Part shown: positions 34,893 through 51,955 of the stretch, piece by piece
Position numbering within the stretch: the first letter of the stretch is position 1
Layout: each line of letters starts with the position of its first letter
Program-made: the position numbers and the translations under genes
Notes under the pieces: model-generated
Databases searched by the model: none
The model's input: only the letters and a program-made list of their open reading frames with translations
What the model was told of the DNA's origin: nothing
Assembly: GCA_030549335.1 (NCBI GenBank)
Contig: CM060196.1
Span: forward strand, 70,578,139 to 70,642,138
DNA from: Pontederia crassipes
Lineage: Eukaryota; Streptophyta; Magnoliopsida; Commelinales; Pontederiaceae
DNA: 64,000 nt
Direction: 5' to 3'

Positions 34893-37516
34893 AAAATAAA
34901 AGCCTAAAGATGATATCACTTCAGGAACAATGACATTTTTTAGTATTATTTTAGTTTATATATAAGTATAATATATTAATATGAGAAGCATCATTTTTAG
35001 AGTCAACGAGGTTACTGGGGTGGGGGCTGGTATGATATGTATATTAATTAATCTGTTAATATATAACAAGGTAAAAAACAAACCTAAGAAATGGATGCTC
35101 CTGCCTCCTTAATTATTTATATGGGACTTTTCAGGGTTAGTTTGCCTAATACAAAGACAATTTGGGTTACCTTTTAGGTGGGCAATGCTTAAGCAACGGG
35201 TTAGCGCAATGGAGCAGACGGTGGCACGTGGGGGTATCAGCAAAGCGTAATCAATCTTGGTGCGTGGCGTCGCACTGATGGTTTTGGGCACTAATTAGGG
35301 CCAAAATTCTGTCACTATGTCACCCTCGCCCGACCAAATAACTCGAAGGATGTCAACGAATGATGGGGGAAAGGATCAAAGGACAAACCACTAGCGCGGC
35401 CATTGCCTTTCAGGTAGCATTGGATTTGAAACTTGTCTAATGTTCTTTAAAAAAAGAATTTAATTTGATGATACATTACTTTTGAAAGTATTTTATGAAA
35501 GCGTCCGATCCTTTTGTTAAACAAGGTATCACTGTTACACCGAAAAGTTAAAGAAAAAATGTTAGATCATTTATGACAGATTACAAATGATTAAAAGTTA
35601 CGGCTGAACTGCAACTACACCATTTAAAAATTTAGGAGTTAGTTTTATGATGTTAATTTAAAAAAAAATTCACAAATTATTTTGCTTATACAGTTCTCTA
35701 ACTTTGTTTTATAGTAAAATTGTTATTCATTTCAAATCTTTGTACGTTATATCCTTTTCGGAGGGTGAATTTTCTTTAAATGATAACTTATTTTCTGTTG
35801 ATTCAGTCTTTGGTGAAAAAGAAATTGAATACGCATCGACTAGTCAAAACAACAAATTCGTTTTTAATTATTGGAAAAGATGCAATGGATCTTACACACG
35901 AAACTCTACAAATTTTGCACAAATCACAATCTAATTTATTATCTTTTACGTTTTTACAGCAAATACGTGAAGAATGTTTGTCTTACAAAGATCTCCAATA
36001 TTATGTGAAAAATATGGTGGCTTTTGGTCCTTTTTTGTTTTTTTTTCTCTTTCCTGTTTGGTTAAGTACTAAAACCAACACAAATGATGCGATCCAGCTA
36101 CCCGGCCGATAAGGAAACCAAAGGGGGAAAAATCAAAAATAGAAGTTGCCGTCCACCGGGGTCGATTTTTTTTTTATTTCTTCTAACAGATTTGGTATCT
36201 CTGTCCCACAAAAGTTTATATAATGATATGCCAAACACATTTAAACACAATAATATATTATTAATACTAGTACGAATATTTATTAATCATAACATTTTTA
36301 TTATTATTAGCATATCTTTATCCATTCTATTAATTGTATTATTAGTATAATTAATTGATTTATTAATAAATAATAATATTTTATTATTAATTAATGTAGT
36401 TTAATAGTAATTCATAATATTAATCATTATTAATAAGTTTTTTATTATATTTCTATTAAATATAATAAATTGTTTCATAAATTTAAAACTTTTGAGGATA
36501 TAATATGTGTTTCTGATTTAAATTTATAGAATTAAAAAATAAATTGCACGGATGTTTAAATTTATTATTTTATTCAAGAGTATATCTGATAGAAAAATGG
36601 ATATTACTTAGCACATCATTGCTTTATTATAAATAATTCATACGAATGATCAATAAATTAATCATGGGTATTAAACAAAGTGATATATATTATTAATAAT
36701 TTAATAAATAATATTTTTGTAAGAGACAATCAACTAACTTGCAATTGCAATGTAGTGAACCCCCAAAAAGGAAAAGAATAATGCATCGATTAATCGGATT
36801 ATTTTCTAAATTTGATTTTCACTAAAACTAATTGCCCCCGTTTTCTATTTAAACTTTGTCAACAGTTCAAATTAAATAAAAAATTTGCATTTGTCCAAAT
36901 GAAGTTGCTCAATGCTTCGCTTGCAAACATTGGATTATCAAGTAACGTATGGAAAAAGGAAAAAAAATTAAAGAGACTGAGACACCGCCAATTCTTTGAT
37001 TTGTTTCAGCACAAAATGATCCTTCTACTACATGTACTTTTTACCAATCCTATGACCGAGTATATCATGTTTTCTTGTTCTTTACGCTATTGTTTTTATT
37101 TAGACATTAAATATATAAAAATATAAAAAAAATCGTACCTAAACTAAATAAAATTGTAATATAAAATATAGTCAAGTTATATAAAAATTTTAAAATTAGA
37201 GGCTAAAAATTAACAAGCTAAAATAAGGAGCCTCATTTGGGAAGCCATATGTCTCTTCTCTCTCTATCATAGAGAGAGAAATTTTATTCTTTTCTATCAT
37301 TTTCGTGACGAGAGAGATGGAGTGACAGTCACCTTCTTCCGTCATCGTTATATATCGATAGTGAGACCAATGTTGGAAGACCCAACTCGTAGGACGAACC
37401 CGGTCACAACTTGGGGGTGGGTCAAATCATAAAAAATATAAAATGTGAATTAATATAAATACAAATGAATTTTAAAAAAATAGCTACCATTTTTAATGAA
37501 AATGATCTCAACTTTA
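34893..37516. other. No gene seen
   Basis: AT-rich intergenic DNA. Several open frames of 70-110 codons (for example 35780-36112 and 36812-37126) have AT-driven composition and no known domain. Confidence 0.4.
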
Positions 37517-37663
37517 ATTACATCACTAATAAGATATCAAAATATAGAGTGTCCCTCGCGAAAATCATTTATAAGTGAATCAAATTTGATTACATCACTA
37601 ATAAAATATCAAAATATAGAGCGTCGCTCTTTCAAATCGCGAAATTTATAAGTAAATTCACAC
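37517..37663. repeat. Tandem duplication of about 72 bp
   Basis: TTACATCACTAATAA...ATATCAAAATATAGAG at 37517-37588 is repeated at 37589-37663 with a few changes. It lies at or just past the 3' end of the decayed hAT transposase. Confidence 0.8.
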
Positions 37664-38019
37664 TAAATGTTCTAGTAATTTCTTTTTTTATATAAACTAG
37701 TAAATAATTTCGATCTTGTTGTGAAGCTTATTTTTTATATATTCATTACCAAAAAAGATCGCTTTGGTGTTGCCATGTAATTTGAAAGAGTGAGAGTCAC
37801 TCTTTTATATACTAGTTGATAAATGTAAGATTTTCTTATTTTCATCAACCATTGACTTAGTTTAGATATGGTTGAGAGCTTCTTGAAATTTTGAGAATAA
37901 TATTTGCATAGTAATTGATAAATATTATTAATTTTGAATGTTGTCTGCATATCTTTGAATCTAAATCTGAACTAAAAATTAATAGCTTATCATTAAATTT
38001 GTTGTTCAATTATTGTAAC

Positions 38020-39025
38020 CAGTGTTATTAAAGTCTGACAAGCGTGGACCATCACCAACACAATCCATTACGAGCCCCAAAAACAAACCCTTAATCAAAC
38101 CAAATTAAACCGATTCAGACTTGTCGAAATAGGACAAAGAAAATCTAGTTGAACCGCAATTCATGGGCCACCAAAAATTTAAAATTTTTTATTAATATAT
38201 ATTTTGAAAAAGTTTATTATTATAATTTTGGAAAATATCCAAAAATAAACTTTTTTCATAAACAATGATATTGACCCATTAACCTCCTCCCCTATTAATA
38301 TTTGTCACTTTATTCACATCTTTCTTTTATTAATAACGTGGGATTATGTTTGTACACATTACTTGTTCTTTTTCTTTTTATTTAGTCTAGAACTTATTAC
38401 ACTTTGAACTTTAATTTGGATTATAATTTTATTCAATTTTTTAATATCATAAGTATATATTATAATAAGATAATTATATATTTACTATATTAAATAAATT
38501 AGTTAGGGATGAATAGTGCAAATTTCTTTGTTATATGTATATACTTAATATAATATAGTATAATATATATATATATATTTAAATTTTCTTTGCTTTAATA
38601 TGTAATAAGTTCAAATTTAATATCAACAACTAATTATACTATATATTTATTAATAGAATATATGATCTTGTCATAATGTTTTTGGGAAAAAAAATATTTA
38701 TTTGTTACTTCTAACATAAAAAACAAAGACATGAAATACAAAAATTTAAAGAATAGAAAATTTATATATAATAACAGAATTAAATAATATTTAAATTTAT
38801 TAAGTGTGCAATAATTTTAACATCAAATCTTAAAATTTAAATTTATGTTTTACGATTGTTAATTTTCTTTTGTATAATTACATTTTGACATAGGTATATA
38901 ATTATAGAATAACTTGATTTAGTATACCATATTAAATATATATTTTATTACTATTCGGTCAGATCGATTCGATCTGAAATGGACATCTATCTAGATCATT
39001 GTCTGACTCGGTCATGACAACATTG
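38020..39025. mobile_element. Non-autonomous hAT element nested in the hAT transposase, 1.0 kb
   Basis: Ends CAGTGTT... and, inverted, CAATGTTGTC. A perfect 8-bp target duplication ATTGTAAC flanks it (38012-38019 and 39026-39033). The interior is AT-rich with no coding capacity. The duplicated octamer lies inside the transposase reading frame, just after the DSQLQ block. Confidence 0.88.
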
Positions 39026-39442
39026 ATTGTAACTGAGAATCTATCACAACATTAAAAATATCAACTCTACAGTGATGTTCTATTGTTTTGACATCTTGTC
39101 GATGATGAGGACTTCTTCCAACAACATTAGTGACATCTACATTTGGAACCGGTATGTTAATTGTCTCACTGAAATTTTTCACTGTAATAATTAAATCATT
39201 CCATCCACCATCGCTTGCATTTCATTTACAATATTTTGAGATTGATTTTGTAAAGTTTGACATAACAAATCAAAAATGTTAAAAAGTTTTGTCATGAGAT
39301 GCAAAGTGAAAACAAATTCAAAAGATGTTAATGTTTCATATGTCGCATCTGCATTTGGTCGTTGAGTAGAAGTAACATCACCATCAATAATGTTCAACAA
39401 AACTTCACATGTATGGGTTAAATGTATTGATCAAGCTAGAAA

Positions 39443-40141
39443 CAAGGTTGTCAAGTTCGAGTTTCTACCTAAATTCGTTTTAGGGGGGTGAATTTGTATC
39501 GTAAACTCGATACGTAAATACGTAGAATTTAGATACAATATAAATTTAATAATTATTATTCTATAAACAACATCAAATATATTAGTAAATATGAAAAACA
39601 TTAAAATAAAATCAATAATTAGTGAATAAAAATTTACAAATTATAAACTTACATCAAATTAAAATGCAATTTATTTTAAAATTGTCAAGATCCAAAAATA
39701 TATGCAATAATGAACTTAAATCTTATTAGCAATATATTTAGGTACAAATAAATATATAAAAAAATAGTATATTATTTTATAAGATTTTTCCCAATGTATT
39801 ATTAATGAATTAGGGTAAATTGATAAAAAAAATGATGTATAATATATGAATTATGGTGAAATAGTATTAAAAAATGGCTGCTAAGGTTTGAACCTGCAAC
39901 CTTGTCATATGAGACAACAACATCTACGAGTTAACCACATGAGAACATATGTTCTAGAATCGCCGATTTTCTTACTTACTCGTACGAGTGAACCGTTTCT
40001 AACCGTTTCCACCGAACAAAAACGCATTGAAGTCCGATTTCACCCCCATTTCCGATTTTAACTCGAGTCAACTCGTTTTCTGACCCTAGAAACGTAAAAT
40101 CGTAAGTTTTTAAGTACTAAAACTAGTTTTTAACAACCTTG
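39443..40141. mobile_element. Second non-autonomous hAT element nested in the hAT transposase, 699 bp
   Basis: Ends CAAGGTTGTCAAG and, inverted, CAAGGTTGTTAAA. Perfect 8-bp target duplication GCTAGAAA at 39435-39442 and 40142-40149. It is inserted in the transposase just after the RDTRWSSHLRYLSS text. The interior includes a tRNA-like stretch on the minus strand near 39950-39885, with a B-box-like GGTTCAAACC. Confidence 0.9.
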
Positions 40142-41265
40142 GCTAGAAAGATATCTTAAATGTGAACTCCAACGAGTGTCTCTTGATCTTTGCAATATAC
40201 CACTCTGAAATCATCTTTCCACTTTGAATTTAATTAATATCAAGTAAAAAAGCAATATTTACAGTACGAATAACTTTCAGTTGATCATTGCACTTACATG
40301 ATACATCAATCATGTTAATAATGGAGCTTAACTTGGTAAAAAAATAATGAATGTAAAGCACATCTTACAAAGTAGCAACTAATGCTAATTGTCAGTGATG
40401 TGCCATGCAATGAACATAATATGCGTAAGGACATATTTTAAATTAAAGCTTGCTACCCATCCCACTCACCATTCATGTTACTTGCACCATCATAGTCCTG
40501 TCATCGAATATTTTGAATATCAAGATTATGTTGTGATAAGATAAAATGGATATGCATCCCTTAACATAAGTTTCCTAGTCATGTGAAGTTTTAGATTCAT
40601 TATTACCTCTGAAGGCATATCCTTGATATTCATGCCATCTTGTTACATCAATATAAGCCTTTAATATGATTTTATTTTTAGTAATATGTTGAAATGTATA
40701 TCTTTGAATTTGCTTTTGAATATGTGGAGATTGATTAAGAAGATCCTGCTGAGGAGATTTGAGATCTTTTTCAATATGTGCAAAAAATGCACAATTTTTG
40801 CCATCCTTTACCTTTTTCTAATTCGAAATCTATCTACACTAAAAGCCTTTGATCGAGAAGATCCATCTTTCTTGAGAAATATAAAACAAGGAAGATAAAA
40901 TATTACATCTTTAATTAGAGAATATTTCAATCACGATGGAAATAATTTATACTATGATGTATGAAAGGATCTTTGATGTTTTTTCTTCAGATTTTGGATA
41001 TTCTAAAAGGATACATTGATATGAGCCAGCTTTAAATAAGCTCTTCGAATTTCATTTCGCATTTGTATAGGTACTCTCATATTTGTTGCTGTACACTCGG
41101 ATTACGTTCTAATAAATTAATATAAAATGTCTCATAGCAATTTTTTTGAATTTTCGTTGGGTTGCTATTAGAAGTCAAATGATCAACATGGGCGAAAAAT
41201 TGCTCAATTGAATTCCATATTTTAGCATTCTTTCTTTTGCAAAAAGAAGTTGATGTCTTTTTCAT

Positions 41266-42257
41266 CTATAAGAAATAGAAAATTATAAAAAAATAAATAT
41301 GTATATGTGTGTGTAAATATATATATATATATATATATGAAGTTGTAAAATTATTCAACAAATTAAATTATTATTACTTATCTCAACTTTTGTAATAATC
41401 TATTTGGTCAGATGTAATCCTCAATGTATTATGCTTCATTAATAAAAAATTTACAAATGAACAATAAAGACCAAATAAACAAACAACAGAAATCAAATAA
41501 ATGGACAATAAATATTCATGATAGGAAAACTTTCATGCCATTTCTTGCTTACGAACACTTTTTTTAAAATAATAGCAGTTTTCTCTTTGATTATTTACCT
41601 ATTAAAAAATTAAGTAGACACTATTTACTGCCACTAATTGTTTACTTATTTGAAGAATATGAGCTCGAATGATTTAAATGATGAATGGGTCTAAAAATTA
41701 TTTATAAGAGTGGCAAATCCTTAATGATATATGAAATTTACTATTCAAATTTCTTTATATTCATTCAAGGATTCAAAAGATGAAAAAAAAATCACAGTTC
41801 AAAGCCTTGATACTTAATTCAAAAATTCAAGAAAAAATCGAAATACATAAGAAATTACAAAAAAAAAACAAAACTTATTATTTAATCCTTCTCCGATTCT
41901 GACTTGTCTTCTTTCTTTGCACTCCTTCTTACTCCTCCACTAGAAGGCCAACACTGTTTGTCGAACCAACAAACTTCAACCGCTGCCACCTACCATGGGA
42001 TCACATATCCACAAACCCGATTCTTATTTTTATTATTTTCTTCTTTCCGCAACAACTTTAACATTATAATTCATGGAGGTGGAGCCCAAAGGGGGCATTG
42101 AATGGGACCCGGCCATCAATCTGGATTAGTCATCGGGTGAGGTCGAACCGAATCGAACTAGGTAAATCGGACAATCAAATCAGATAATAATAAATTAATA
42201 TAAGATGACTAAATGAATAAATAGTATATTTTTTATGGTTTCTATGTTTATAACAAC
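41266..42257. other. AT-rich DNA, 5' flank of the hAT remnant; no gene seen
   Basis: Includes a short TG/TA microsatellite near 41305-41338. 42110-42180 has GGTCGAACCGAATCG-like text resembling the other flank of the satellite at 42958-43090, hinting that both belong to one element. No clear ends. Confidence 0.4.
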
Positions 42258-42957
42258 ATATTGATGATTGAATTTAACTTTGAATTGAAAAATTAAGATG
42301 AATAATCAAAGAAAAAGTGAAAAGATAAAATCGAATTACTTATTTTAAATTGGAAGCACACATATTTAAAAAAAACAATGGAGGAAACAAATTAGCTCAT
42401 CAAATAATTTATATAAGAAATTAGAAAAGTGAAATTTAAAAGTTAGATTGAGAAGGTTTAACTTTTTAACATTTTATTTTGTTTTCACTATATTGATGAT
42501 TGAATTTAACTTTGAATTGAAAATTTAAGATGAATAATCAAAGAAAAAGTGAAAAGATAAAATCGAATTACTTATTTTAAATTGAAAGCACACATATTTA
42601 AAAAAAACAATGGAGGAAACAAATTAGCTCATCAAATAATTTATATGAGACATTAGAAAAGTGAAATTTAAACGTTAGATTGAGAAGGTTTAACTTTTTA
42701 ACATTTTATTTTGTTTTCACCAGTATATTGATGATTGAATTTAACTTTGAATTGAAAAATTAAGATGAATAATCAAAGAAAAAGTGAAAAGATAAAATCG
42801 AATTACTTATTGTAAATTGAAAGCACACATATTTAAAAAAAACATTGGAGGAAACAAATTAGCTCATCAAATAATTTATATAAGAAATTAGAAAAGTGAA
42901 ATTTAAAAGTTTGATTGAGAAGGTTTAACTTTTTAACATTTTATTTTGTTTTCACCA
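42258..42957. repeat. Tandem satellite, three units of about 233 bp
   Basis: Units start with ATATTGATGATTGAATTT at 42258, 42490 and 42725 and end near GTTTTCACCAG at about 42957. They are nearly identical apart from a few substitutions and a short length change, so the array is young. No open frame of note. Confidence 0.95.
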
Positions 42958-43447
42958 GCGGGGTCACTCAAACTCGATGAGTTGATCGGTTGAAATCAGA
43001 TTTTGATCGAATTTGACCGAGCCAAAGTGAGTCAAATTCTTTTTCGAATTTCAATTGATCCGTGACCATTTTAAGTTCCGGTCCAACTGGTGGAGCCGTG
43101 CACCACTGCAATGATCTCTCAACTCCTTTTTTCTTTAATTTGTTCACGTCATATTGTTCGTACTATGGAGGTGTATGTAGTTTTCAACACATTTGAGACC
43201 GAAAATAATATTTTATATTATTTTTAAAAAAGTAGAAGAAAGAAACATTAGTCGAATCATGAAGATTTTCATTTTGGCATCGAAAAATTAAAACAAAATT
43301 GGAGGAGCATTTGTGGGGGGAAGAAAAGTTGAGTACGCTAGAGGTGTAATAAAGCAATTGGACCATTTATATAAACTGCCCAATGAAATAACGCTCAACA
43401 ACACTCCAGTACACCATTTTTCTTAAGTGATAATAGAGACGTCCGAT
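42958..43447. other. No gene seen
   Basis: 42958-43110 is GC-richer, with words like TCGATGAGTTGATCGG and GTCCAACTGGTGG. The remainder is AT-rich spacer. Confidence 0.4.
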
Positions 43448-43938
43448 ATCGTAAGAAGACTCTAAGAAAAGTCAGAAGTCGTGTGGTGGGATGTTATTAA
43501 TGCAAGAATTGGTGCTTGCTACGATTTGAATAACTGTCGCACCTCATGGAACAACTTGTGCGAACTCGTCCGCTACAAACATAAAACGCAGAACATAACA
43601 CTCGTTAAAATCCACTCCATCAGAAGAAAACATAGTTTCAATTAAAATTTGAGTTATTTTCATAAACCACCTTTAAATTATTCCGATTTAAATTATCGTA
43701 AGAAGACTCTAAGAAAAGTCAGAAGTCGTGTGGTGGGATGTTATTAATGCAAGAATTGGTGCTTGCTACGATTTGAATAACTGTCGCATCTCATAGAACA
43801 ACTTGTGCAAACTCGTCCGTTGCAAACGTAAAACGCAGAACATAACACTCGTTAAAATCCACTCCATCCGAAGAAAACATAGTTTCAATTAAAATTTGAG
43901 TTATTTTCATAAACCATCTTTAAATTATTCCGATTTTC
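43448..43938. repeat. 246-bp tandem duplication
   Basis: 43448-43693 is repeated at 43694-43938 with only a few differences. The last 40-odd bases of each unit are the start of the Mutator-like element's terminal repeat, so the first unit carries a stray piece of it (from 43651). Confidence 0.93.
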
Positions 43939-44400
43939 TACATCTAACTCCGAATTATGAATTTATTTTTTTGAATTCCTAAACTATCACGATTTTTTTA
44001 CTTTAGTCCTTCAGTCTACTTCTATTATGTTACTTTTGATTTTTTCCATTATTAAAAGACTAAATTACCCCTCCCGCCATAACACATCAAATAATAAATA
44101 TAAAAAAATGAAAACAAATCAGGAGGAGGGTAATTTAGTCTTTTTCATAATTGACATTTTTTTTGTTTATCACTTTAATCCTTCCAATGATTTTTTTATT
44201 TTTTATATTTGTTATTTCATATTTTTCTGGATTGAGGGGTAATTTAATCTTTTTATAAATGGAAAAAAGTATAAGTAACGAAAAATGAGAGATTAAAGTG
44301 GAAAGTTATAATAGTTTAGGGATTAAAAAAAATAAATTCATAATTTGAGATTAAATGTGAAAAATCGTAATAGTTTAGAGGAGGTTTATGAAAATAACCC
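43898..44400. mobile_element. Mutator-like non-autonomous element with long inverted ends, 503 bp
   Basis: Terminal inverted repeats of at least 100 bases: left GAGTTATTTTCATAAACC, right (inverted) GGGTTATTTTCATAAACC. Both continue through ...AATTATGAATTTATTTTTTT. A perfect 9-bp target duplication TTAAAATTT flanks it (43889-43897 and 44401-44409). Long inverted repeats plus a 9-bp duplication are the hallmarks of Mutator-like elements. There is no transposase; a short open frame inside (44027-44242) is AT-driven. Confidence 0.88.
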
Positions 44401-44409
44401 TTAAAATTT

Positions 44410-45381
44410 TAAGGGCCCAATACAAAAGCACTAAATCGGTGTTCCATAAAAAAAGGAGACATTAATCGTCGTAATTGTGTCTAATTTGAAACTGAATATG
44501 ATATTATGATTTAAAAATTGAGGTCACTTAATAAGAATTGCTTTCACATCCAAAGTCGTAAGAACTTTTTAAATGCATTCATCTCCAAGAACTTGAATTT
44601 CCCCTCTAGTCGCAGCAGTTAATATGATACAGATCGAGTTGTTGGTGCAGAAATCACGGTTGGTTTTACGCGTCATTTCAACTTCGACTCATCCCAGTAA
44701 TGTTTGGGGTGTGACTGACGGGAATGGTTCATGGAACCATCTATCTGACGTGGCTTTAATTCATCTAATGCTTGAGCAGACCTACGACATTGACAAGAGC
44801 AGTTTCCGGATGGAGTGCAGCAACAGGGTTGCCAGTTGTATTAGCAGATAACAATTGAAATGATCAAATTCGAATAGAATATAACATGATTCACATTGTA
44901 AAAGAAAGAAAACAAAAGCTACCCGTTGACATCAACCATCATATGTTGAGCTTTACGAAAATTATAACAGTGACCAAATTCCAAAATACTTATTGAAAAA
45001 GAAATTGAAAAAACGAATAGGTCGTCCCATTACTTCCACTGGTGACTACATAGCTTCTGGCTCCACAGGGATGCGACTCAGAACTAAACTAACTGCATAT
45101 ACTGATCCAACGAGTCAGATCTAATATTTGCTAATTTCAGCCTAGAGCCCCATCACTTCCCCCTTGTTACCGTCTTAAGGAAACTCTCTAGTTGAATCGG
45201 AAAAGAAAAGGTTATAAACATGCTGGAGACGGTATTCGGTACAGATTTGCACACTGACATGGAAGCTCACATATTTCCACCAGTTTTTCCTTATATGGCT
45301 GCGGCGCTTTAATACAACTTCAGAACTAGATGGAAAGAGAACATAACATCATTCTGAAAGCTGCCTAGAAATCTTCTGGGC
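44410..45381. other. Spacer and 3' UTR of RABH1
   Basis: 45180-45381 should be the 3' untranslated end of the RAB gene. 44410-45180 shows no gene; one open frame at 44624-44851 has no recognisable domain. Confidence 0.4.

Positions 45382-51955
<6,574 letters not shown>

Follow-up and report, generated by a model that had tools for sequence, protein, structure and literature searches.

A dead hAT element of Pontederia crassipes with two non-coding hAT-like inserts on either side of a segment duplication in time

According to the available excerpt of a description of the superfamily (PMC3942097), hAT elements range from 2.5 to 5 kb and show TIRs of 10-25 bp and an 8-bp TSD. Nesting has been surveyed in MULEs: the available part of PMC3903597 gives nested insertions in 36% of the candidate coding MULEs of maize and in 41% of those of rice (about 24% in rice when copies of a single event are left out), two or more of them in over half of the affected maize MULEs, and cites work in which MITEs inserted into LTR or other DNA elements are far rarer than other elements inserted into MITEs. 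Going by these excerpted figures, insertions into transposase genes are to be expected, and the nesting of a MITE in a transposon may be less common, not new. The locus described here shows the same situation as the maize and rice MULEs of that excerpt, a transposase-bearing DNA transposon hit by inserts, and differs from them in that all three elements, host and inserts, are hAT, not Mutator, LTR or Tourist. It is an ordinary nested-transposon history and, since nested transposons are common, it has little biological weight. Its use is as a clock: a copy of the locus on another chromosome (contig C13) separates, in one dead element, an insert that precedes the split of the two copies (A) from a younger one (B). 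The same comparison also shows that the dead element took an insert of a different class on that other chromosome.

The window, which is the whole 64-kb stretch analysed, corresponds to positions 70578139-70642138 of contig C14, in a genome of 1.13 Gb and 43 contigs. By homology, its minus-strand blocks at about 37.4-42.1 kb read as one hAT transposase of the DUF4371/Dimer_Tnp_hAT type, in order (Table 1). When 58 open stretches taken from 30 of the genome's DUF4371 loci were compared by tblastn with the whole window, 128 of the 131 matches were found at 36-43 kb, all of them on the minus strand and collinear with the transposase, which bears out the first-pass annotation in placing the outer blocks in order in a single transposase. 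That annotation gave the gene a span of 37600..41265; the blocks in it are real, and the element is larger, with a degraded left TIR near 37389 and the right terminal ~10 bp gone near 42106. Compared with an intact hAT, the window copy is dead: its right end is truncated, a large stretch is missing, and stops and frameshifts interrupt it; block 1 in particular contains many stops and frameshifts and lacks ~0.3 kb at 40564/40582. In alignments with the relatives L041 and L042 the residues are continuous across both insert junctions, and against the window the closest relatives run through block 1 up to DTRWSSHLR... and then into block 2, while DSQLQ at 39021 resumes at 38018. The Pfam profile check proposed at first pass was borne out in part. 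One piece of block 1 matches PF14291 (DUF4371) with an E value of 8.3e-6 and 26.3 bits, which does not reach the curated cut-off of 32.1 (scores among the genome relatives go up to 292.6 bits), and the DUF4371 stretch of L042 finds block 1 by tblastn with an E value of 1.6e-23. L042 also contains PF05699 (Dimer_Tnp_hAT, E 6.4e-13), and thus shares DUF4371 and the hAT C-terminal dimerisation domain with hATs that have a DUF4371 transposase; its PF05699 stretch aligns to block 3. Since Pfam scans of the window's own block 3 pieces matched no hAT family, Dimer_Tnp_hAT included, the C-terminal assignment of this block rests on the relatives. The window scans also gave sub-cut-off matches to unrelated families, DUF5847 (E 0.0048) and Syntaxin-18_N. 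The N-terminal part of the outer element may resemble a TTF-type zinc finger (zf-TTF); Pfam scans of window pieces and of relatives' stretches outside the N-terminal part gave no zf-TTF match. In C6a and C16, the two relatives whose termini were both read, the short inverted ends are CAGGGA-like and the flanking 8-bp duplications match, by eye, at 7 of 8 positions in each, which fits the excerpted description of the hAT superfamily (PMC3942097).

Table 1. Position of the outer hAT element, its coding blocks and the two inserts with their target duplications in the window
Feature	Position	Strand	Basis
Outer hAT element, dead	37389..42106 (ends approximate)	-	Homology to relatives and their termini
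Host block 3, C-terminal, counterpart of the L042 Dimer_Tnp_hAT part	37555..38019	-	tblastn, L042, E 9.5e-15
Target duplication of A, left, ATTGTAAC	38012..38019		Read from sequence
Insert A, non-coding hAT-like element, 1006 bp	38020..39025		Ends, TSD, other copies, same site in C13 copy
Target duplication of A, right, ATTGTAAC	39026..39033		Read from sequence
Host block 2, middle of transposase	39026..39442	-	tblastn to L046, up to 65% identity
Target duplication of B, left, GCTAGAAA	39435..39442		Read from sequence
Insert B, non-coding hAT-like element, 699 bp	39443..40141		Ends, TSD, C7 copy, empty C13 site
Target duplication of B, right, GCTAGAAA	40142..40149		Read from sequence
Host block 1, N-terminal part and DUF4371 region	40142..41265	-	Pfam PF14291, tblastn to relatives

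Each of the two gaps in the minus-strand transposase is filled, just as the first-pass annotation described, by a hAT-ended element with a perfect 8-bp duplication: the ends are exact, and the duplications match at 8 of 8 bases at A and at B. The ends are CAGTGTTATTAAAG.../CAATGTTGTCATGA... in insert A and CAAGGTTGTCAAGT.../CAAGGTTGTTAAAA... in insert B, and both pairs differ from the ends of the host family. None of the stop-to-stop stretches in insert A or insert B is longer than 66 aa. By test, insert B is a non-autonomous element of hAT type, with TIRs, an 8-bp TSD, no coding sequence and many copies, and insert A shows the same features, its TSD being perfect in the window copy. Both resemble hAT-type MITEs in that they lack coding capacity, have CA(G/A)(T/G)GTT ends and 8-bp duplications, and are dispersed, and both differ from them in being long, the usual size of a MITE being below 699 and 1006 bp. 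The genome search for the two inserts, also proposed at first pass, shows both families dispersed: at least 44 matches are listed for A and at least 64 for B, pieces and the window copy included, and the matches listed for A contain at least 39 further places beside the window copy. Both ends are present in five B copies, that of the window among them, and all five have 8-bp duplications, perfect in four and matching at 7 of 8 in one; three further B loci in the sample are fragments without ends. B is 97% identical to a copy on C7, and its K2P distance to the nearest copy among the matches listed is 0.026. Seven other A loci were examined: L003 to L007 have two recognisable ends, with duplications that match at 7, 6, 7, 5-6 and 6 of 8 positions, respectively, and in L002 and L008 two recognisable ends were not seen. 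Because the duplications of these other copies are eroded, the assignment of A to hAT draws mainly on the window copy. On C3, the region 13637119-13654139 (L014-L016) contains six listed B fragments (about positions 14-461) at ~2.8-kb steps, one of them doubled, which resembles a tandem array with a B fragment as part of its unit; the sequence beside the B fragment in L014 is 71-74% similar to the solo-LTR-like insert of the C13 copy.

The first-pass annotation proposed that hAT-into-hAT nesting reflects either a preference of these elements for related DNA or a safe landing zone. A preference would mean that the transposase or the chromatin context steers A and B into related elements; two hAT-type inserts of different ages inside one element are in its favour, and an unclassed gap of 577 bp in the C22 relative could be a further hAT insert. 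However, the ends of the host family differ from those of each insert. Co-location was assessed on the start coordinates of the listed places, with neighbours within 3 kb merged (the omitted rows, for B the 22 lowest of 64, are second pieces of places already listed), and the sets contain at least 40 A places, at least 37 B places, 154 DUF4371/outer-family places and 150 Dimer_Tnp_hAT places; since the hAT places are a best-scoring subset, 150 of 375 and 150 of 1545 candidates, the power is low. With the window locus and the C13 copy left out, none of 38 A places and none of 36 B places falls 5 kb or less from any of the listed DUF4371/outer-family or Dimer_Tnp_hAT places. About 0.1 is expected by chance at this distance for each family, so the test could catch strong preference alone. 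At 20 kb, two of 37 B places are near a listed Dimer_Tnp_hAT place (0.20 expected), at distances of ~7 and 19 kb that are not nesting. No hAT reading-frame match at E 1e-3 was found in 13 other A or B copy loci, some of them not independent of one another, searched together with flanks of 1.5 kb; at the DNA level, L003, L005, L007 and L008 share short matches of 31-111 bases with outer-family relatives, and a longer match links L014 to the LTR-like insert of C13. Across the 14 other relatives of the outer family, B gives no match and A gives matches of 34-43 bases, nothing longer. The host family has also been struck by inserts of other classes. In a small survey of five insertion-like gaps in relatives plus the C13 insert, two could be classed: the C13 insert, which is solo-LTR-like, and a 692-bp insert of the C10 relative, ending in GGCTCTGTTTG/GGTTCTGTTTG and flanked by a duplicated TAA, which we take to be Tourist/Harbinger-like; the gaps in C22, C2 and C13c and a second one in C10 were left unclassed. 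The co-location null and these other insert classes together rule out a strong preference, which is all that such small tests exclude, and a preference of A and B for related DNA is not supported; we regard it as very unlikely. Slightly less probable still is a broader reading in which certain families of hAT MITEs in this genome insert into dead hAT elements several-fold above chance, this locus being one case, and we would give equally little credit to its accompanying route, a shared chromatin state or sequence context. As for a safe landing zone, nothing was found beyond the tolerance of insertions that is to be expected of dead transposon DNA in general.

The best DNA relative of the element among the matches listed is C13:62175373-62181696. 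It is contained in a region, C13:62165490-62192471, that is collinear with positions 28100-52000 of the window (~24 kb), on both sides of the element and with roughly 80-95% identity, so the two regions are most likely homoeologous parts of a duplicated chromosome segment. The C13 copy carries A at the same site, where A's right end and right duplication are deleted; A is therefore older than the C13/C14 split. At the B site the C13 copy has a single GCTAGAAA and reads AAGCTAGAAAGAT, with no footprint, and B is therefore younger than the split. The K2P distances agree with this order: between C13 and C14 they are 0.095-0.109 for the host blocks, 0.130 for A and 0.066 for the left flank, and B stands at 0.026 from its nearest listed copy. 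hAT elements excise, and B might have been present before the split and then lost from the C13 copy; but this candidate was rejected on its footprint-free site, and the identity of B to its C7 copy also contrasts with the 9-10% difference between the two host copies, which makes excision a highly improbable account. The ~0.3 kb of transposase gone from the C14 copy is found in C16, C22, C6b, C17, C5, C2, C13c, C12 and C11b, and corresponds at the protein level to ~110 residues missing between 40584 and 40551 with respect to L041. Checked directly, the C13 copy runs straight over the point of this loss. Since the stretch is missing in both copies, the transposase gene is, on this comparison, placed as dead before the split and before B, and the loss is not orderable against A. 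To call the gene broken open, as was done at first pass, is thus right as regards hAT-in-hAT nesting at two independent points and misleading for B, which found ~0.3 kb already lost. The insert proper to the C13 copy is 2.25 kb long, with TGTAAC...GTTACA ends and a 5-bp duplication AGTAT, ~90 bp from the B site; by its structure it is probably a solo LTR.

Empty sites were sought in 14 DNA relatives of the outer family, as the first-pass annotation had advised, and were found for both inserts. At the A site, nine of the 14 show matches on both sides and A is absent in all nine, the matches joining across the site with an overlap of 5-10 bases. At the B site, eight subjects join cleanly with an overlap of 8-10 bases, exactly 8 in five of them; we count the C13 copy among them. 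B is absent from C22 and C2 too, with a less clean junction, and C10, C11a, C13b, C13c and C14b show no match at the insert sites and are uninformative for either. Overlaps of this size at the joins are the signature of empty sites. A chance reading of the duplications is ruled out by the 8 of 8 bases at both sites together with the empty relatives. That A and B are ordinary internal parts of the outer family, introns or spacers, would suit non-coding sequence placed between coding blocks, but the empty sites rule it out and the exact duplications and the copies elsewhere in the genome also oppose it, so its probability is practically nil.

With high confidence, the locus is read as a dead hAT that received A before the duplication and B, like the LTR element on the other copy, after it, with no special targeting. 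An autonomous hAT of the DUF4371 type would have inserted here long ago and then decayed, and the non-autonomous hAT element A would have jumped into the C-terminal coding block of this host. A duplication of the region, most likely by polyploidy, would then have produced the copies on C13 and C14. The dead element on C14 would later have received B, a younger hAT MITE unrelated to A, and on C13 an LTR element would have landed nearby and been reduced to the present solo LTR. Each hAT insert would have duplicated 8 bp of its target in the usual hAT way; A and B were probably moved in trans by other hAT transposases, and their landing may have been random. Because dead transposon DNA is under no selection, rich in AT and long, it accumulates insertions, and special targeting need not be invoked.

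The segment collinear with C13 is useful for dating every insertion in the window. Just outside the outer element, positions 42257-43141 appear to contain a ~233-bp unit in tandem (42257-42488, 42489-42721 and 42724-42955), of which the C13 copy, according to the match table, seems to have one. The stretch at ~43651-44401 has no C13 counterpart, and the C13 matches on either side of it abut with a 9-base overlap. Within it, about 0.5 kb at 43889-44412 has many listed copies on both strands and is probably a palindromic element. Over 340-655 bases, positions 48438-49094 match places on C15, C7, C3, C12 and C9 at 97-99% identity; this stretch is mostly without a C13 counterpart and is likely a recent dispersed insertion.
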